From assembly GCF_039538045.1 (NCBI RefSeq), contig NZ_BAABBQ010000001.1, positions 1,758,001 through 1,822,000 on the forward strand: a stretch of 64,000 bases of DNA, read 5' to 3'. A program made the position numbers and the translations under genes. The number at the start of each line of letters is the position of its first letter. The stretch's first letter is position 1. Positions 32,216 to 40,773 of the stretch are shown in pieces. The DNA comes from Sphingomonas swuensis. GTDB lineage: Bacteria; Pseudomonadota; Alphaproteobacteria; Sphingomonadales; Sphingomonadaceae. A model generated the notes under the pieces. The model ran no database searches, was not told the DNA's origin, and was given only the letters and a program-made list of their open reading frames with translations.

Positions 32216-34237
32216 TTACTTGCCGCCGAGCGCCTGGCTCAGCCCCGGCGCATATTCGGCTCCATGCGGGACCTTGGCGGTCGACTTGGCGACGGTGTCG
32301 CCGATCGGCTCGGCCCGCCCGCCGAGGCAGCGGCCGAGGAAATTCTCGGTGACCGCGTTGAAGGCGATGTTGTTGACCGGCCGGGCGAAGCCATGTCCTT
32401 CGTCGGGGAACAGGACGTAGGTCACGGGGATGTTCTTGGCCTGCATCGCCGCGACGATCTGCTCGCTCTCGGCCTGGTTGACCCGGGGATCGTTGGCCCC
32501 CTGCCCGATCAGCAGCGGCCGCTTGATCTGGTCGGCCTTGTAGAGCGGCGACGCGGCCTTGAGCAGGGCGAGACCCTCCGCCGAGGTCGGATCGCCCATG
32601 CGCTTGTAGAACTGGACCTTGCCCGCTTCCCAGTAAGGCGGAATCGTCTTCAGCAGCGTCTCGAGATTGGATGGCCCGACAATGTCCACTCCGCAGGCGA
32701 AGGTTGTCGGGGTGAAGGTCATGCCGGCAAGGGTCGCATAGCCGCCATAGCTGCCGCCCATGATCGCCACCTTGTCGCTGGTAGTCACGCCCTGGTCGAC
32801 CGCCCATTTGACGGCATCGAGCAGGTCGTCGTGCATCTTCAGTCCCCACTGGAGATTGCCGGCGTTGGTGAAGGATTTGCCGAGCCCGGTGGAGCCGCGA
32901 TAATTGACCGCGAGCACCGCATAGCCGCGGTTGGCGAGCCACTGGTGGTAGGCATTGAAGCCGTAGCTGTCGCGAGCCCACGGTCCGCCATGGACGAACA
33001 GCACCATCGGCACCGCGCGATCGGCCTTTCCGTCCCTGTTGGCGTCGACCCCAGCGGGCAGCGTCAGATAGGAGACGAGGTCGAGCCCATCGCGGCTCTT
33101 GATGACCACCGGGGTCATCGGCACCAGCGGGGTCCCGGCAAGCTTGGGCCGGCTCTCGAAAAGCTGGGTCAGCGCCTGGCCCTTGCGGTCGTAGAGGTAG
33201 CTCGTCGACGGCCGGTCGCTGGCGATCGCGGCGATCACCCACTTGTCGTCGGCCCGAGTCCGCGAAGTGACGGTCCAGTCACCCGGAAAACGCTTGTTGA
33301 GGAAGGCGACGTCGCCGGCGATGGCCGACCCGATCGGCTTCCAGTCCTGCCGCAGATAGTCGACCGTATAGGCCTCGACCTCGCCGGTCTCGGGGTTGCT
33401 GAGGATGTCGCCGACGTCGGCCCGGGCGTCCTCGGCGACGACCCGCTTGGTCCCGCTCGCGACGTCCTGTGCGATCAGCGCCGCGGTGTTCCGTCCGCGA
33501 CTGTCGATCCAGTAGAGCGTCTTGCCGTCGTTGGTGAAGCCGAGCGGGTTGGTCGACAGGCTGTCGTCGAGACCGACCTGTTCGAGCGGCTTGCTCTCGA
33601 CCTTGTTGTCGATCACCCGGAAATAGTCGCTGCCGCCGTCGCTTCGGCTCTTGAGCGCGCCGCGAACCACCAGCCGGCCGTCGGCGACGAAGCCCGAATA
33701 GTCGCCGGTGTTCATCAGCACCGGAGTCAGCTTGCCCGTCGCGAGGTCGAGGCTGTGGACGTCGTGCCACTTGGCGTCGCGGTTGTTGACCCCGACGAGG
33801 ATCCGTCCGGGCACCAGCGGCGAGATGCCGACGATCTGCACCCGGGTCTTCTCAAACGGGGTCATCAGCTTCTCGCCGCCCGAAGCGACATCGACCCCGT
33901 AGAGCAGGAAGTTCTCGTCGCCGCCCTTGTCCTGGATGTAGAGCAAGGTGCGGCTGTCCGGGGACCAGAAATACTGGCGGATCGGCCGGACCTTCTCACT
34001 TGTCATCGGCTTGGCCGCGGACGGGTCGGAGGCGGGCGCCAGCCAGACGTTCATCACGCCGTTCACCGGCGCGGTCCAGCTCAGCCACTTGCCGTCGGGC
34101 GAGATCTGACCGCCGGCACGCTCGGGATTGCCGAACAGCACGTCGCGCGGGATCAGCGGCACCGGCCCCTGCGCGACCGCGCTCCCGGTCACGAGGCAGG
34201 CGGCGGCTGCCGTGGCAGCAAGAAGCAAGCGGCGCAT
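32216..34237 (-). CDS. S9 family prolyl oligopeptidase-like serine peptidase
   Basis: 673 residues, exported (signal peptide MRRLLLAATAAAACLVTGSAVAQ). A beta-propeller occupies about residues 30-370 (SPDGKWLSW, SPDSRTLLY type repeats). The C-terminal alpha/beta hydrolase domain carries the nucleophile in GGSYGGYATLAG (Ser496), the GANDPRVNQAES Asp region and the DEGHGFARP His. It probably acts in the periplasm on peptides, complementing the dipeptide uptake genes further downstream, though that link is only suggested by content. Confidence 0.92.
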   Translation of the reverse strand: MRRLLLAATAAAACLVTGSAVAQGPVPLIPRDVLFGNPERAGGQISPDGKWLSWTAPVNGVMNVWLAPASDPSAAKPMTSEKVRPIRQYFWSPDSRTLLYIQDKGGDENFLLYGVDVASGGEKLMTPFEKTRVQIVGISPLVPGRILVGVNNRDAKWHDVHSLDLATGKLTPVLMNTGDYSGFVADGRLVVRGALKSRSDGGSDYFRVIDNKVESKPLEQVGLDDSLSTNPLGFTNDGKTLYWIDSRGRNTAALIAQDVASGTKRVVAEDARADVGDILSNPETGEVEAYTVDYLRQDWKPIGSAIAGDVAFLNKRFPGDWTVTSRTRADDKWVIAAIASDRPSTSYLYDRKGQALTQLFESRPKLAGTPLVPMTPVVIKSRDGLDLVSYLTLPAGVDANRDGKADRAVPMVLFVHGGPWARDSYGFNAYHQWLANRGYAVLAVNYRGSTGLGKSFTNAGNLQWGLKMHDDLLDAVKWAVDQGVTTSDKVAIMGGSYGGYATLAGMTFTPTTFACGVDIVGPSNLETLLKTIPPYWEAGKVQFYKRMGDPTSAEGLALLKAASPLYKADQIKRPLLIGQGANDPRVNQAESEQIVAAMQAKNIPVTYVLFPDEGHGFARPVNNIAFNAVTENFLGRCLGGRAEPIGDTVAKSTAKVPHGAEYAPGLSQALGGK

Positions 34238-34288: not shown

Positions 34289-36523
34289 TCAAGCGTCCTG
34301 GAACCTGTTGCTCCGCGGGAAGCCGAGGGGCGCCATGCGGCCGCTTGCGCCGCGGATCGCGCGCCAGGCAGTCAGGTCGGACTCAGTGCGGGTCCGCCCG
34401 CTTTCGCCGCCCATGCTCCAGCTCAATCCGTCGGCCATCTTCAGCACCGCGACATCGGCAAGCCCGCCGTCACGGTAGCGCTGCAGCTGGACCCCGGCCC
34501 CACGGCCCATTTCGGGCAGTTCGGACAGGTTGAAGACGAGCAGCTTGCGATTGTCGCCGATCACCGCGACCGCATCGGCGCCCTCGGGCACCGGGCGCAG
34601 AGCCGCGAGCTTGGCACCGGGGCGGAGATTGAGCAGCTGCTTGCCCTTGCGCGTCTCGGCCAGCACCGCCTCGCCGCTGGTCACGAAGCCGCGCCCGTCC
34701 GAGCTTGCGACCAGCAGCCGGGCGCTCGGCTTGACCACCAGCGCCGCGGCAATCTCGACCTCGGCCGGGAGGTCGATCGACAGCCGGATCGGCTCTCCGA
34801 AGCCACGCCCGCCGGGCAGCTTGTCGCCGCCCAGCGTATAGACCCGCCCGTTCTCGCCCACGATGAGGATCTTGTCGGTGGTCTGCGCAAGGATCGGACT
34901 GCCCGACAGCTCGTCGCCCTCGCGGAACTTGAGGGTGCTGAACTCCTGCGCCGCGAGGTGTCCCTTCATCGCCCGGATCCAGCCGCGCTGCGACAGGATG
35001 ACGGTGATCGGCTCCTTCTCGATCATCGCCGACCAGTCGATCTCGGCACGCGCCGCCAGCGGTTTCTCCTCGATCGTCGTCCGCCGCGCGTCGCCATATT
35101 TGGCCTTGACCGCCTCGAGGTCCTTCTTGAGCCGGTTGCGCTGCTTGCGCGGGCTCTCGATCAGCGCGACCAGCTCCTCGCGCTCCTTGGCGAGGCCCTT
35201 GCGCTCGCGCGCGATCTCCATCTCCTCGAGCTTGCGCAAGCTGCGCAGCCGCATGTTGAGGATCGCCTCCGCCTGCCGGTCGGTCAGCTCGAACTCGGCG
35301 ACCATCACGACCTTCGGCTCGTCCTCGGTGCGGATGATCTCGATCACCCGGTCGAGATTGAGATAGGCGATGAGGAAGCCGTCGAGCAGCTCCAGCCGGT
35401 CGTCGATCTTGCCGACGCGGGTCCGACTGCGGTTGAGCAGCACCTCGATCTGGAACTGGAGCCAGGCCGCGAGGCAGCCCTTTAGCCCCATCACCCCTGG
35501 CGTGCGGTGCTGGTCGAGGACGTTGAGGTTGAGCGGGAAGCGCACCTCGAGGTCGGTCAGCTTGTAGAGGCTCTCGAGCAGCAGTGTCGGGTCGACCGTC
35601 CGGCTGCGCGGCTCGAGCACCACCCGCAAGTCCTCGGCGCTCTCGTCGCGGACGTCGGCGAGGATCGGCAACTTCTTGTTGGCGATGAGCTCGGCGATCT
35701 GCTCGATCAGCTTGGCCTTCTGCACGCCATAAGGGATCTCGGTGACGACCAGGTCCCAGCCCCCGCCCTTCTCCTTCTCCTGGCCGACCCGCGCCCGCAG
35801 TCGGAAGCTCCCCCGTCCGGTCTCGTAGGCGCTGAGGATCGTCTCGCGCGCATCGACCACCAGTCCGCCCGTCGGAAAATCCGGGCCCGAGACGAAGTCC
35901 ATCAGTTCGCGCGTTTCGGCCGCCGGATTGTCGATCAGGTGCGCGGCGGCGTCGATCAGCTCGGTGACGTTGTGTGGCGGTATGCTGGTCGCCATGCCGA
36001 CCGCAATCCCGCTCGCCCCGTTCGCCAGCAGATTGGGGAACAGCCCGGGAAAGACCTCGGGCTCCTCTTCCTCGCCATTGTAGGTCGGGCGGAAGCTGAC
36101 CGTGCCCTCGTCGAGGCCATTCATCAGCTGGGTCGCGATCGCGGTCAGCTTGGCTTCGGTATAGCGGTAGGCGGCGGCATTATCGCCGTCGATGTTGCCG
36201 AAGTTGCCCTGCCCGTCGACCAGCGGATAACGCAGCGCGAAGCTCTGGGCGAGGCGGACCATCGCGTCATAGACCGACTGGTCGCCGTGCGGATGATATT
36301 TGCCGATGACGTCGCCAACCACGCGCGCCGACTTCTTGTAGGCCCCCGCAGGGTCGAGCCGAAGCAGCCGCATCGCCCACAGCAGCCGCCGATGCACCGG
36401 CTTCAGCCCGTCACGGACGTCCGGAAGCGAGCGGGCGGTAATCGTCGACAGGGCATAGACGAGGTAGCGCTCCGACAGAGCGGCATCGAACGGGACCTCG
36501 ATCTCGGTTTCGGATGGCTGCAT
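34289..36523 (-). CDS. parC: DNA topoisomerase IV subunit A
   Basis: 744 residues. Breakage-reunion domain with [37 protein letters not shown] and the catalytic tyrosine in [11 protein letters not shown] (Tyr121). The C-terminal beta-pinwheel has GxxG-type blades ([21 protein letters not shown]) and a shorter length than GyrA, which favours ParC over GyrA. It decatenates daughter chromosomes with ParE, which is not in the window. Confidence 0.95.
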
Positions 36524-36595: not shown

Positions 36596-36868
36596 CTAAA
36601 AGCCTAGCTGCTCGCACCACCGCAATTCGTTGCGCGTTGTGGCACGGTTTGCGCAGAAGTCCGCCATGATTTCCGGATTGAGCAGGTAATTGTGATCGTT
36701 GCCCTTGGCTTCACGCGAGTTGACTAGGCACGTGCCGTCCACGTCATACAGCACGCACGATGGCTCGGTCTGGATCTTTCTGTCGGTGTGGTCAGGAGCA
36801 GCGGCATTCGCCAGCGCTCCCGTTGCAATGGCGGCGATGAACAATGCAGATGCGACGAGTTTGTCCAC
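36596..36868 (-). CDS. Small secreted four-cysteine protein
   Basis: 90 residues with signal peptide MDKLVASALFIAAIATGALANA. The mature chain has exactly four cysteines (EPSCVLYDVDGTCLV, MADFCANRA, RWCEQLGF) that can form two disulfides. It starts at a GTG with an AAGGAG ribosome-binding site, 61 bases downstream of the lasso-cyclase-like gene on the same strand. I recognise no family. Its position makes a link to the peptide locus conceivable but unproven. Confidence 0.7.
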   Translation of the reverse strand: MDKLVASALFIAAIATGALANAAAPDHTDRKIQTEPSCVLYDVDGTCLVNSREAKGNDHNYLLNPEIMADFCANRATTRNELRWCEQLGF

Positions 36869-36929: not shown

Positions 36930-38786
36930 TTACATCCGTTCCGGAACTAATGACCGCCGAACCTTGAAGTTCTCGGCCAGGAAAAGTGCCAACGAAAGCG
37001 TTCCGAGGAGCGCATGATAATCGTCCTCGCGACTTAAGGCCTCCGCGAAGGTGCGCGGCCAATGTTTGAGGAAAGGCACAGCGCGCCGGACATCGATAGC
37101 GTCCGATACCACGGCCACTTGGCTCAACTCTTCTAAGGTGTCGCGGATTAGCTCGGGCCGCAGCGCTAACCACCAGTCAGCAGCTTGGCGGCCCTTCCTC
37201 CTGTTGCCCAGCAGCTCCGGAGGAAGGAGGCCCGCAAAAGCCTGCTCAAACAAGGGTCGCCCCAATGTCTCGTCGACGAGAAGTCGAGCGGGGACCTGAA
37301 GGCACAGTTCAATCAAGCGTAGATTAGCTGTCGGGTCACGGGGCTGAATGCCATGGAAGACCCAAGGGGTAAAATCCGCCATATCCATCTGATCGAGTAC
37401 TGTACGCAACTCTTCCCGGGCGCTTCTGTCGAAACCATTTGAGAACGGACGCGCATCCAGCGATTCGAGCAGCGGTCCGCGCCAGAGTGGGCTCGGATTG
37501 CGCGGTCGACCGAAGCGGGCTGCCCAAATACGCTGGCGCAGTCGCACCGGCAGACTGTGGTTGGCGACTGTCCGCAGAGACGTCTTTTCTGCGGCGTAGC
37601 GCGCGACGCGCCACCACCGCACGGTCTCTTCCTCACTCCGCAGGTCCGCTAGGAATGGAAGCCCTCCGCCGCTCAGCCCGAGGTTGCCCATCGCTCCGAT
37701 CAGCATGACCTCGGCACCTGCCCTCGCAGCGGCGTCTGCAACAGCCATCCTCAGGCCAGCACCGACCGCGCTTACCGGAGGAAGGAAGGTCCAGCGCTGG
37801 ATCTTCCTGAGCCAGTCGAGCTGGGATTCAGGCGAACCTCCATCGACTACAAGGTGATCGATGCCTAGGTAGTTCGCCGTTCTGAGGGCGGGAACTGACT
37901 CGTCGAAGATAAGGTGCTGATTGTCCTCCCCAACGGAGCCCGGGAGCGGCTTGAAGGTGATGGCCGTGACCCGTCCAGGTGCGAGGTGTGCCGCCATGGC
38001 GGTTACCGCACTGCTATCGCGCCCGCCGCTCAGTTGAGATGCGACGAGGCCGTCTTTTGGCAGGCACTCCTGAACCGCTTGAAGGGCCGTGGCTCGATAG
38101 TCCTCCACCCAATTTCGTTCGGAAAGGTCGGCAGCGACTACCGGCGACCATATATCGACTTCAGACCAGCGTCCGTTGTTCCAGAGGCGAGCATGCCCCG
38201 GACGAACTCGCCTCACGCCAGCAAAGGCCGTGCGATCGCCAGGCACCACCATGTGGTGCACGATTGTCGCCATCGCTCCCCAATCGGGAGCAGCATTCAC
38301 TTTCTCTGACCAAGCTAGCACCTGGGCGAGAGAAGCAAACAGGGGTCCATCTTGGCCGTCGGCAAAGAAGATCGGGTGGGTTCCCATCGGCGAGCGAACC
38401 AGCGCCATTTCGCGAGATGATCTATCCCAAAGAAACAGCGCCCAATCGCCGGGCACCTGCTGGCCAATGGCGTCCCGCCACTGCAGCCACGCTCTACCGA
38501 GCAACTCCGATTCGGAGCTGGCATCGTCGCACTCTAGTTTGCGACAGACAGCGGCGCGATCCGAAATCCGTCCCGTTGCGACGCTCAGGACGGTGCCAGC
38601 GCTCCATGCCCAGACAGCAGGCGACAAGCCGCCCGCCTCTCTCGCGCGAGCAGACAATATTGCGACATCATCGGTCGCAACGATTGATAGCGCTAAGGTT
38701 GGCGACCGGAGCGGCGTCGCCAAACTTAGACATGTCCGTTCTAGAGTAGCTTTCTCGCGACCGATGGCGCCGCAAAAGAAGTCCAC
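36930..38786 (-). CDS. Asparagine synthetase-like protein, candidate lasso-peptide cyclase
   Basis: 618 residues. The N-terminal part (MDFFCGAIGREKATLERTCL) is related to the glutaminase domain of AsnB, but there is no Cys at position 2, so glutaminase activity is unlikely; this is normal for lasso cyclases, which adenylate an Asp/Glu side chain. The AsnB-type synthetase domain has the PP-loop SQLSGGRDSSAVTA (SGGRDS 253-258) and later GNRRKGRQAADWWLAL. It is 12 bases downstream of a 40-residue precursor-like gene, with GTG start at 38786. GC is lower than in the core genes around it. Confidence 0.8.
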   Translation of the reverse strand: MDFFCGAIGREKATLERTCLSLATPLRSPTLALSIVATDDVAILSARAREAGGLSPAVWAWSAGTVLSVATGRISDRAAVCRKLECDDASSESELLGRAWLQWRDAIGQQVPGDWALFLWDRSSREMALVRSPMGTHPIFFADGQDGPLFASLAQVLAWSEKVNAAPDWGAMATIVHHMVVPGDRTAFAGVRRVRPGHARLWNNGRWSEVDIWSPVVAADLSERNWVEDYRATALQAVQECLPKDGLVASQLSGGRDSSAVTAMAAHLAPGRVTAITFKPLPGSVGEDNQHLIFDESVPALRTANYLGIDHLVVDGGSPESQLDWLRKIQRWTFLPPVSAVGAGLRMAVADAAARAGAEVMLIGAMGNLGLSGGGLPFLADLRSEEETVRWWRVARYAAEKTSLRTVANHSLPVRLRQRIWAARFGRPRNPSPLWRGPLLESLDARPFSNGFDRSAREELRTVLDQMDMADFTPWVFHGIQPRDPTANLRLIELCLQVPARLLVDETLGRPLFEQAFAGLLPPELLGNRRKGRQAADWWLALRPELIRDTLEELSQVAVVSDAIDVRRAVPFLKHWPRTFAEALSREDDYHALLGTLSLALFLAENFKVRRSLVPERM

Positions 38787-38798
38787 GCGAAAAGTGGT

Positions 38799-38921
38799 TT
38801 ACGAACGGCGCGTATTTGCTCCGCCGCCGGTGCCCGGCTCGTTGTTGGAGTTGCTGGCGGCTTCAGCTGAACCCGCAACCATGCGCTTCAATGCCGGCTT
38901 GTTCCAAATCTTCTTGGTCAT
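38799..38921 (-). CDS. Candidate RiPP (lasso-like) precursor peptide
   Basis: 40 residues: MTKKIWNKPALKRMVAGSAE then AASNSNNEPGTGGGANTRRS. The leader part has W-x-x-P-x-L, like the Y-x2-P-x-L motif of lasso leaders, but lacks the usual Thr at position -2. If Glu28 is the ring acceptor, a ring starting at Ala21 or Ala22 would have 8 or 7 members; that is a guess. A GGGA box before ATG 38921 could serve as ribosome-binding site; in-frame GTG codons further upstream would extend it. The cyclase-like gene follows after 12 bases. Not recognised as a known family member. Confidence 0.6.
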   Translation of the reverse strand: MTKKIWNKPALKRMVAGSAEAASNSNNEPGTGGGANTRRS

Positions 38922-39181
38922 GTCTGTTCCCGAGCGGGACACGTATCGCGCCCCTACGGTCACCTCCGTAGAAGAGCCAGCATCGATGTTCAACTTTAGT
39001 TAAATGCTGGGCCTCCCGCTCTTGCGGTATTCGCTGTGAGTGTCACCTAATCGCCACGTCGTTCAACGCTCGTCGAACACGACGCGTGAACTCGTTCTTA
39101 ATGGGCGCTTGCACTGGAATCTCATTTAGACATACCATCTGTTGCCGAATCGCCGCATTGCAATCCCGGGGGGATATTGAG
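38922..39181. promoter_or_regulatory. Divergent region between the precursor gene and the RadC-like gene
   Basis: About 260 bases, less GC-rich than the surroundings, holding the promoters of the two divergent genes. A perfect ribosome-binding-site match (GGAGGTGA on the minus strand, about 38960) lies too far from the proposed precursor start to be its own. No further gene was seen. Confidence 0.35.
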
Positions 39182-39646
39182 GTGCAGGAATTCGCGGTTG
39201 ATCGGGCCAACGTGCAACTGGTTGGTCTTCACGCTTGCAAGCAGTTCTTCGAACCGATGTTTCACGGTCGAAAGATGGAAATGTTCCAGGCCGCGCTTTT
39301 TGATGAGCAGTTGCGCCTCCTCAAGGTACTGTCTTTTCAAGGTACAGAGAGGGAGGTTGTGCCGGATCTTTCTGCAGTCTTTCGAGAAGCAGTCCGAATC
39401 GAGGCTGACGCCATTCTCATCGCGCACAATCATCCTTCAGGAAATGCTCAGCCCAGTCGCGCAGACCAGCAGCTAACTCGCGAGTTCTCGCAGGCGTGCG
39501 AGCAATTAGAAATCACGTTGCTGGACCATATCGTCTTCGCGAACGGGGAAAACTACTCGTTTCGTGCTCACGGAGTTTTTGATCCGGGATTTTTAGATCG
39601 ATCGATCCTCCAAGGTGGAAAGCGGCGGGCCTCGCCCGAGCGGTAG
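39182..39646 (+). CDS. Short RadC-type JAB domain protein
   Basis: 154 residues, starting at GTG 39182 with GGGGGG eight bases upstream. It is the JAB/MPN domain of RadC without the N-terminal helix-hairpin-helix part: the metal-binding motif AHNHPSGNAQPSRADQQLT, EAVRIEADAILI before it, and LLDHIVFANGENYSFRAHG after it. Short RadC proteins are common on mobile and defence-type regions; their function is not known. Its 3' end overlaps the convergent ThiD fusion gene by 79 bases, so its last about 25 residues are probably not native to the family. Confidence 0.8.
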   Translation: MQEFAVDRANVQLVGLHACKQFFEPMFHGRKMEMFQAALFDEQLRLLKVLSFQGTEREVVPDLSAVFREAVRIEADAILIAHNHPSGNAQPSRADQQLTREFSQACEQLEITLLDHIVFANGENYSFRAHGVFDPGFLDRSILQGGKRRASPER

Positions 39647-40773
39647 AGAAACACGATGTTGCCCGCGGGATCGCGAAGCCGGGCCTCGCGCCACAGCCAT
39701 GGCTGGTCGCGGGGCCCATGCTCGAAGACGAGGCCCGCACGGGCCAGCGCCTCGACCCGATCGTCGAGGTCGTCGCACTCGAAATAGATGGCGGTCGTCG
39801 GCGAGACCTCCTCGTCGGGATCGATCTGGACCGAGAAGGTCGCCCCTCCCCAGCTTTCGAAGCGGGCGTAGCCATTCTCCGGACTGTCGACGATCTGGCG
39901 CAGCCCGAAGCGGCGATAGAAGGACACCTGCGCGCCATAGTCGCGCCCCGTGACCGTGACCTGGTTGAGCCTCGGCGACCCGCCGACGTCGAGTCGGACC
40001 GCGCCATGCCCCATCGGGCCGTGCCCTCCGCCGATCCCGGGGGCTTCCAGAAGCGCCAGGCGGACGAAGTGGCGTGCCTGGGCCACGGCGTCCGCCAGTC
40101 GGCGGCCCTCGGCAAGGCCCACCGCGATCGCGCTGGCAAGCGTGCAGCCGGTGCCGTGGCTATGCGGCGTCTCGATCCGCGTGCCCTGCCAGCTGGTGAG
40201 ATTGTCCTCCTCGATGAGCGCGTCGGCGATCGCCTCGCCTTCCTCATGCCCGCCCTTGACCAGCACCGCGCAACGATGGTCGGAGACCAGCCCGAGGGCG
40301 CCCTCGACCGGGTCTTCCTTCCCGGTGAGCCGGACCAGCTCGGGCAGGTTCGGGGTGACGATCGTCGCCAGGTCCATCAGCTGGCCGAAGGCGGCGATGG
40401 TGGCGTCATCGGCCAGTTCGGCGCCGCTGGTGGCGACCATCACCGGATCGAACACCAGCGGAATGCGCTCCTCGAGGCTCGCCAGCCGCTCGGCCACCAT
40501 CCGGGCCGTGAAGGCCGATCCGATCATCCCGATCTTGATCGCGTCAGCCCCGAAGTCTGACAGCACCGAATCGATCTGTGCCAGCACGATCTCCGCCGGC
40601 ACCGAATGCACCGCATCCACCCCGAGGCTGTTCTGCGCGGTGACGGCGGTGATCGCGGTCATCGCATGGCCGCCCAGCATCGTGACGGTCTTGATGTCCG
40701 CCTGGATACCCGCGCCGCCCCCGCTGTCGGAGCCGGCGATGATCAGGATCTTCGGAGGTTTCGGGCCGGTCAT
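39568..40773 (-). CDS. thiD: ThiD fused to a VOC (glyoxalase-like) domain
   Basis: 401 residues. ThiD (HMP/HMP-phosphate kinase of thiamine synthesis) occupies about residues 1-262: ILIIAGSDSGGGAGIQADIKT, VFDPVMVATSG, and the anion-hole motif HSHGTGC (Gly207-Cys210). A second domain (about 268-395) begins NQVTVTGRDYGAQVSFYRRFGL and has GYARFESWGGATFSV and YFECDDLDDRVEAL, the vicinal oxygen chelate fold. The joint is continuous with no stop or frameshift, so this is a real fusion. What the extra domain contributes is unknown; it may bind a thiamine intermediate or a metal. Confidence 0.9.
   Translation of the reverse strand: MTGPKPPKILIIAGSDSGGGAGIQADIKTVTMLGGHAMTAITAVTAQNSLGVDAVHSVPAEIVLAQIDSVLSDFGADAIKIGMIGSAFTARMVAERLASLEERIPLVFDPVMVATSGAELADDATIAAFGQLMDLATIVTPNLPELVRLTGKEDPVEGALGLVSDHRCAVLVKGGHEEGEAIADALIEEDNLTSWQGTRIETPHSHGTGCTLASAIAVGLAEGRRLADAVAQARHFVRLALLEAPGIGGGHGPMGHGAVRLDVGGSPRLNQVTVTGRDYGAQVSFYRRFGLRQIVDSPENGYARFESWGGATFSVQIDPDEEVSPTTAIYFECDDLDDRVEALARAGLVFEHGPRDQPWLWREARLRDPAGNIVFLYRSGEARRFPPWRIDRSKNPGSKTP

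Follow-up and report, generated by a model that had tools for sequence, protein, structure and literature searches.

Introduction

Lasso peptide systems of the paeninodin-like type (paeninodin; SyanA/SyanK of Sphingobium yanoikuyae; pseudomycoidin with PsmK and PsmN) combine a precursor (A) ending in Ser, an RRE protein (B1), a peptidase (B2) and a cyclase (C) with an HPrK-like kinase (K) and a nucleotidyltransferase-type gene (N) (PMC8498205, PMC9266682; this literature is cited from excerpts, and our comparisons hold for those excerpts). Lasso rings join residue 1 to an Asp or Glu at position 7–9 (PMC10368454), and the leader motif bound by the RRE is given as [Y/W]xxPx[L/V/I/A/F/Y] (PMC13381572). 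In paeninodin, phosphorylation is reported to precede folding (PMC8498205), and sugar addition has been proposed for PsmN (PMC9266682).

Three other described systems share parts of this make-up. BsfA of Bradymonas sediminis has a kinase, discrete B1 and B2 proteins and a residue other than the usual Thr at position −2; according to the same source, others have reported putative Ile/Val/Ala(−2) precursors (PMC10368454). Metanodin, from one soil metagenome cluster, starts with Asn, outside the Gly/Cys/Ser/Ala set (PMC12670498). Paeninodin-like clusters, of unknown role, were described in 2026 near capsular polysaccharide loci of Bacilli: these paeninodin/LPP clusters carry an HPrK kinase, an NTP transferase and an RRE beside polysaccharide genes, and LPP also an MsbA-like transporter (PMC13381572).

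Here we analyze a 64,000-nucleotide stretch of Sphingomonas swuensis DNA (the window; bases 1758001–1822000 of a 2.79-Mb single-contig genome) that holds a small peptide gene next to a cyclase-like gene. From sequence comparison, we put at roughly 0.8 the probability that this pair is A and C of a phosphorylated, paeninodin-like lasso peptide, that its other genes are scattered over the chromosome, that a second pair shares its B1 and B2, and that the A–C pair is exchangeable at its site between thiD and parC. Unlike the paeninodin-like type, A–C here is separated by 164–498 kb from the B1, B2, K and N genes, the usual Thr(−2) gives way to Ala and residue 1 is rarely Gly. BsfA differs in having Ile(−2), Gly1, a phosphorylated core Ser3 and clustered genes (PMC10368454). 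Metanodin shares the Asn that is also commonest at residue 1 here (30 of the 119 peptides listed) but has Thr(−2) (PMC12670498). Unlike the Bacilli clusters (PMC13381572), those studied here belong to another phylum, and N adjoins Wzy while A–C and the S. swuensis B1 lie elsewhere.

Results

The precursor peptide and its family

The peptide ORF translates as MTKKIWNKPALKRMVAGSAEAASNSNNEPGTGGGANTRRS and is separated from the cyclase ORF by 12 nt (38787–38798). Its features are:

38799–38921, minus strand: precursor peptide gene (A), 40 aa (ORF list and family profile match)
38862–38921, minus strand: leader, residues 1–20, with W6xxP9xL11 and an AGxAE-type end (family alignment)
38802–38861, minus strand: predicted core, AASNSNNEPGTGGGANTRRS (boundary inferred from family comparison)
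38838–38840, minus strand: Glu28, core Glu8, predicted macrolactam acceptor (family-conserved position)
38802–38804, minus strand: C-terminal Ser, core Ser20, predicted phosphorylation site (Ser in 119 of 119 listed homologues)

The original prediction, made from the letters alone, described a 40-residue peptide gene 12 bases before an asparagine-synthetase-like protein and a W-x-x-P-x-L leader. The ORFs at 38799–38921 and 36930–38786, the PF00733 match of the latter and W6-x-x-P9-x-L11 in the former bear this out, and the leader conforms to [Y/W]xxPx[L/V/I], the form expected of RRE-binding lasso precursors.

As that prediction implied, the peptide is conserved with the cyclase in relatives. 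Of 31 loci examined, 22 have a small ORF upstream of the cyclase, and further searches added 2 more. These ORFs have the form KKxWxKPEVKxxxAGxAE, followed by 7–8 mostly polar residues, an Asp or Glu and, at the end, Ser; W6, P9, A16, G17, A19 and E20 are invariant (alignment, n = 23). A peptide profile matched 29 of 149 genomes. We removed G038 (E 0.003, inside a 455-aa frame) and G106 (another family, internal stop) and retained G028 despite a short match (E 2e-4), leaving 32 accepted peptides in 27 genomes of the same genus. The profile also matched 207 database proteins. The 120 members listed, one of them the window's own, are named only "hypothetical protein" or similar in their source. 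Residue counts below refer to the other 119, and the profile behind them was itself built from peptides having these features.

Among these listed matches, AGxAE and a C-terminal Ser each occur in 119/119. Asp or Glu stands 7, 8 or 9 residues after AGxAE in 117/119, the remaining two having Asp at 10, and acidic residues are rare at core positions 1–6 (3/714). Core residue 1 is Asn in 30, Ser in 26, Ala in 16, Val in 12, Phe in 10, Thr in 7, Lys in 6, Ile in 4, Gly in 3, Gln and Leu in 2 each and His in 1. The lack of the usual Thr(−2), which had been noted for the window, holds throughout the family: Ala occupies this position in the window, in 23/23 aligned peptides and in 119/119 listed ones, and exceptions to Thr have been published.

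We placed the core boundary after AGxAE because lasso rings close residue 1 onto Asp/Glu 7–9. A core starting at the Gly of AGSAE was rejected: the central acidic residue would then fall at 11–13 and the leader Glu at 4. The predicted ring of the window peptide thus joins Ala1 to Glu8, the sole acidic residue of AASNSNNEPGTGGGANTRRS, with Ser20 at the end of the tail; that Ser is a predicted phosphorylation site on the basis of the kinase specificity for C-terminal Ser (PMC8498205). The original prediction saw no clear ring acceptor. This was not upheld because Glu8 sits at the position that is Asp/Glu 7–9 in 117 of the 119 listed homologues. A database sibling, P0048, is 68% identical to the window peptide; its core, AAFTKNNEPGTPGTASTYKS, keeps Glu8 and the terminal Ser.

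The genus also has a second precursor type (loci L246, L247, L248, L249, L250, L251 and L253), of the form WxxPxL...A-x-(M/N)...E-G.... Counted from the Met or Asn, its Glu falls at 8–9 and Ala is again at −2; 7 of 9 ORFs end in Ser. These Met or Asn forms are possibly Met1 lassos.

The cyclase

36930–38786, minus strand: lasso-type macrolactam cyclase (C), 618 aa, GTG start (domain matches, tree, model)
38013–38030, minus strand: SGGRDS ATP-pyrophosphatase motif, residues 253–258 (alignment, tree set)
37683–37685, minus strand: Asn368 (shared by 34/34 cyclases of this type; 4/4 asparagine-synthetase-type proteins have Asp)

The protein matches PF00733 Asn_synthase (2.9e-24) and GATase_7/GATase_6. 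In glutamine-dependent asparagine synthetases, the catalytic glutaminase Cys is expected at residue 2. The window cyclase has no Cys2, as had been claimed. The first Cys of its sequence is residue 5 (VDFFCGAIG), and no alternative start codon fits; in its two closest homologues (50% identical), the matching stretch is MDVVAGAIG, where Ala replaces Cys5.

Curated models assign the protein to neither class: it scores 93.6 against the NCBIfam lasso-cyclase model (cut-off 525) and, slightly higher, 106.2 against the asparagine synthase model (cut-off 267). We searched 149 genomes, including that of S. swuensis, and found matches in 120, ranging from closely related cyclases (25–35% identical to the window protein) to ordinary synthetases. 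A third Asn-synthase-like place in the S. swuensis genome (1672873) is of the Cys2 type. In a tree of 41 proteins, parts of which are uncertain because of long branches, four Cys2 asparagine-synthetase-type proteins were set apart from the cyclases by a branch length of 2.02 (100/100); with midpoint rooting, a single cyclase, the second copy in G062, fell on the synthetase side (87/80). The window cyclase clustered with three database homologues (100/100) and then with the G031 pair from the same site (95/97). Among the 34 cyclases of this type in the tree, 30 adjoin an AGxAE peptide gene, one (G014) has its peptide 17 kb away and 3 are database proteins. Position 368 is also Asn in 3/3 other lasso-like cyclases. 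We omitted from the tree the first cyclase of G023, which is interrupted; this copy (L187:6581-8475) is split across two frames and is possibly decayed or misassembled.

These data bear on the alternative reading of a glutamine-dependent asparagine synthetase whose neighboring small ORF is there by chance. Asparagine synthase profiles do match the protein and a Cys lies at residue 5, but Cys2 is missing, the protein stands apart from the Cys2 synthetases in the tree, residue 368 is Asn, and 22 of 31 related loci have a conserved peptide upstream. We rejected this reading, which is highly improbable, on the upstream peptides, the genus-wide peptide profile and the tree. The original claim of a precursor paired with a lasso-type cyclase, which a grouping with primary asparagine synthetases would have refuted, is supported by the same AGxAE peptides, tree and Asn368.

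An AlphaFold2 model of the cyclase had a mean pLDDT of 82.1 and a pTM of 0.86. Its closest folds by Foldseek were the hydroxyamidotransferase TsnB9, beta-lactam synthetase and asparagine synthetase B (AsnB); a search of solved structures by sequence gave one distant match, 7ylz. The fold thus also suits beta-lactam- and hydroxyamide-forming relatives. The window core is strongly polar, offers few bulky side chains that could hold a threaded tail and no evident plug, and begins with a residue other than Gly. The pair might then make a cyclic, unthreaded (branched) peptide or another ATP-dependent amide by means of lasso-type enzymes. This is unlikely, given the resemblance of B1, B2 and C to lasso families and an acceptor placed at ring distance in 117 of the 119 listed peptides. 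We found no evidence in this analysis of a core chemistry departing from lasso macrolactam formation.

Helper genes and a second pair on the same chromosome

We looked for B1 and B2 with family profiles. Neither is in the window, as originally stated; the only matches over cut-off in the genome lie outside it, and the suggested check for RRE and B2-type genes elsewhere found one of each. B1 is the single PqqD protein of the genome (PqqD/RRE; 1298912–1299106, 1.30 Mb; PF05402 over cut-off) and scores 46.8 against the lasso-specific PqqD model, below its cut-off of 80. B2 is the single Transglut_core3 (PF13471) protein over cut-off (1632148–1632474, 1.63 Mb) and reaches 66.4 bits against NCBIfam lasso_biosyn_B2 (cut-off 33). 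B2 is adjoined by an HPrK-like kinase (K) and a PF14907 transferase (N, over cut-off). The kinase matches, at E 1.6e-6 and 8e-10, remain under the curated cut-offs (Hpr_kinase_C 28.2 vs 33.3; HprK_rel_A 38.2 vs 200). Thus both marks of the phosphorylated, paeninodin-like type, an HPrK-like kinase gene (albeit matched below cut-off) and a terminal Ser, are present.

B1, B2 (Cys76, His109) and K (His96, GxGKS, Asp134–Asp135) retain the residues that are most conserved or expected to be catalytic. At positions conserved in at least 85% of relatives, B1 keeps all, B2 departs at 1 and K departs at 3. The usual clustering of lasso A, B and C genes is absent in this genome, where A lies 498 kb from B1 and 164 kb from B2, and B1 333 kb from B2; the genes are clustered in several relatives. 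A second peptide–cyclase pair lies at 2.27 Mb. Its core is SQRGNVADGGGGFQGS, with Asp8, and its cyclase is 32% identical to that of the window.

Hence the original reading of a lasso-like RiPP locus stands for the identity of precursor and cyclase. Its description as a two-gene or minimal system was not upheld because B1, B2, kinase and transferase lie elsewhere on the same chromosome.

An MsbA-related ABC gene (L040:8294-10078), matched over cut-off by a broad MsbA-related model, adjoins B1. It is 86–89% identical in G020, G031, G028 and G059, where B1 is adjacent too. We considered this gene as a possible exporter but assigned none to the pathway.

Co-occurrence and linkage in the genus

The peptide occurs in 27 of 71 genomes of the genus, S. 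swuensis included. All 27 carriers have B1 and 26 have B2; the genome of the single carrier lacking B2 is 79% complete. Scoring genomes with no listed match as negative and ignoring relatedness, Fisher tests gave p = 6e-8 for peptide and B1 and p = 2e-5 for peptide and B2. Genomes with no peptide still had B1 in 18 cases and B2 in 22, and those inspected carry other lasso-like clusters there.

Linkage varied widely among the carriers. B1, A, C, K, B2 and N lie within a few kb in clusters including those of G005, G025, G039 and G053, and 14/27 carriers have at least one A within 5 kb of B1. In 9/27, no A has B1 or B2 within 50 kb on the same contig (S. swuensis, G004, G011, G017, G020, G028, G031, G048 and G059). 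Because B1 is 13–14 kb from B2 in G020, G031 and G028, we conclude that, in part of the lineage, B1 and B2 have stayed close together and only A–C is away; in G020, this interval holds exopolysaccharide genes. In S. swuensis, A–C, B1 and B2 are all apart. Two peptides but one B1 were found in 5/27 carriers, S. swuensis and four others.

The thiD–parC site

39568–40773, minus strand: thiD-like kinase with a glyoxalase domain, one edge of the insertion site (domain match, site alignment)
34289–36523, minus strand: parC, the other edge (domain match, site alignment)
39086–39646, plus strand: RadC-like ORF between thiD and the peptide gene, not claimed as part of the pathway (domain match, site comparison)
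36596–36868, minus strand: 90-aa ORF between the cyclase gene and parC, not claimed as part of the pathway (ORF list)

We compared this site across 31 genomes. thiD and parC are neighbors, or parted only by a pair, in seven of them, S. swuensis included; in the remaining 24, the roughly 1.5 kb beside thiD showed no parC and no cyclase. The site is empty in four of the seven (G028, G059, G011, G017), where the thiD and parC alignments are 26–27 nt apart or overlap, and filled in three (S. swuensis, G020, G031), with the pair in the same orientation. Among these three, the flanking genes are 85–92% identical and the cyclases 31–35%. G059, G011 and G017 carry their cyclases at other places; these are 77–82% identical to one another, but the three genomes are also more closely related (core genes 91–97% identical).

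The lower G+C content that had been noted for the region was confirmed: the cyclase gene has 61.2%, against 67–68% for parC and thiD. Third-position G+C was compared with a local background that is inflated by picking ORFs with high third-position G+C; overlapping loci also caused some genes to be counted twice. The cyclase lay below this background in 27/27 genomes, by 0.064 on average, and B1/B2/K/N in 21/27, by 0.019. In S. swuensis, it is 0.65 for the window cyclase, 0.83 for the second cyclase, 0.79–0.87 for B1/B2/K/N and 0.84 for the background.

Because the same-site cyclases are only 31–35% identical despite flanks at 85–92%, and because cyclase third-position G+C is low, the A–C pair at thiD–parC is probably an exchangeable cassette. 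Fast divergence in place is the weaker alternative.

The same G+C contrast (0.65 against 0.84 and 0.83), with the 32% identity to the second cyclase, would also fit a recently acquired orphan pair that the resident B1 and B2 leave unprocessed while serving the second pair only. We regard this as improbable, though less so than an unthreaded product: both frames are intact, the leader motif and AGSAE are kept, the 68%-identical sibling retains Glu8 and the terminal Ser, and the four other genomes with two A genes likewise have one B1.

Three neighboring genes are noted for completeness. The RadC-like ORF overlaps the 3′ end of thiD by 79 nt and occurs only in the window version of the site; it was not found there in the two relatives that have a pair. 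The 90-aa ORF (P0004) had no match in the 148 other genomes searched and shows, by eye, a signal-peptide-like start and four Cys. An S9 peptidase (32216–34237, minus strand) was considered as a dedicated isopeptidase and not supported (70.7 bits, lasso isopeptidase cut-off 400); it adjoins parC in G011, G059 and G017, which have no pair at the site and a pair elsewhere, and was not found beside parC in G020, G031 or G028.

The polysaccharide locus

In S. swuensis, the gene order around B2 is Wza, Wzc, a TPR protein, Wzy (PF04932), N, B2 and K, and the convergent ends of Wzy and N overlap (the transferase/kinase/Wzy region is L039:7277-14374). N or K lies within 0.4 kb of Wzy in 24 of 26 assessable peptide carriers versus 1 of 13 non-carriers (G044; counts compiled by hand; p = 2.8e-7 by a Fisher test that ignores relatedness). 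Of the 24, 23 have N there and G062 has K only; no such adjacency appeared in G009 or G015, and G026 could not be assessed. From the 31 non-carriers searched, the comparison uses the 13 whose Wzy match was close (an E of 1e-81 or better, or, in G069, a split gene); another 13 non-carriers in the genus fell outside the search. In G059, G011 and G017, N and K adjoin Wzy, which lies more than 50 kb from the pair, more than 150 kb from B2 and about 11.5 kb from B1.

Discussion

Taken together, these results suggest the following pathway. B1, through its RRE, would bind the WxxPxL leader, and B2 would cut after AGSAE. The cyclase would use ATP to adenylate Glu8 and join it to the Ala1 amine, closing an Ala1–Glu8 macrolactam around the tail. 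The HPrK-like kinase would phosphorylate the C-terminal Ser, probably before folding, and the PF14907 transferase may extend the phosphorylated Ser, perhaps with a sugar. The same B1 and B2 would act in trans on the second pair at 2.27 Mb.

Because N and K stay beside Wzy even where A, C and B2 have left, the lasso peptide might be a partner of the exopolysaccharide. N and K would then assemble, on the terminal Ser, a sugar-phosphate by which the peptide is coupled to the polymer or the polymer is tuned, and exchangeable A–C cassettes would supply different knots to one surface-glycan hub. We consider this idea speculative and unlikely; the overlap of Wzy and N alone could hold N in place.

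Each enzyme type described here is already known. Among the open-licence excerpts we surveyed, we found no report of A–C pairs unlinked from B1 and B2. As far as the literature we found shows, two aspects are new: unlinked, probably exchangeable A–C cassettes with one distant B1 and B2, and a large AGxAE family with Ala(−2) and a mostly non-Gly residue 1.

Lasso clusters are usually sought as neighboring genes. Here, A and C can probably travel without B1 and B2, so such systems can be called incomplete, as happened in the original prediction. The AGxAE family has residue-1 types (Asn, Val, Phe) beyond the experimentally observed list in the excerpted text of PMC12670498. The association of transferase and kinase genes with a polysaccharide polymerase gene, known from capsule loci of Bacilli, recurs in Alphaproteobacteria. 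Finally, a cassette combined with one shared processing set makes the tolerance of B1 and B2 for foreign precursors directly testable.
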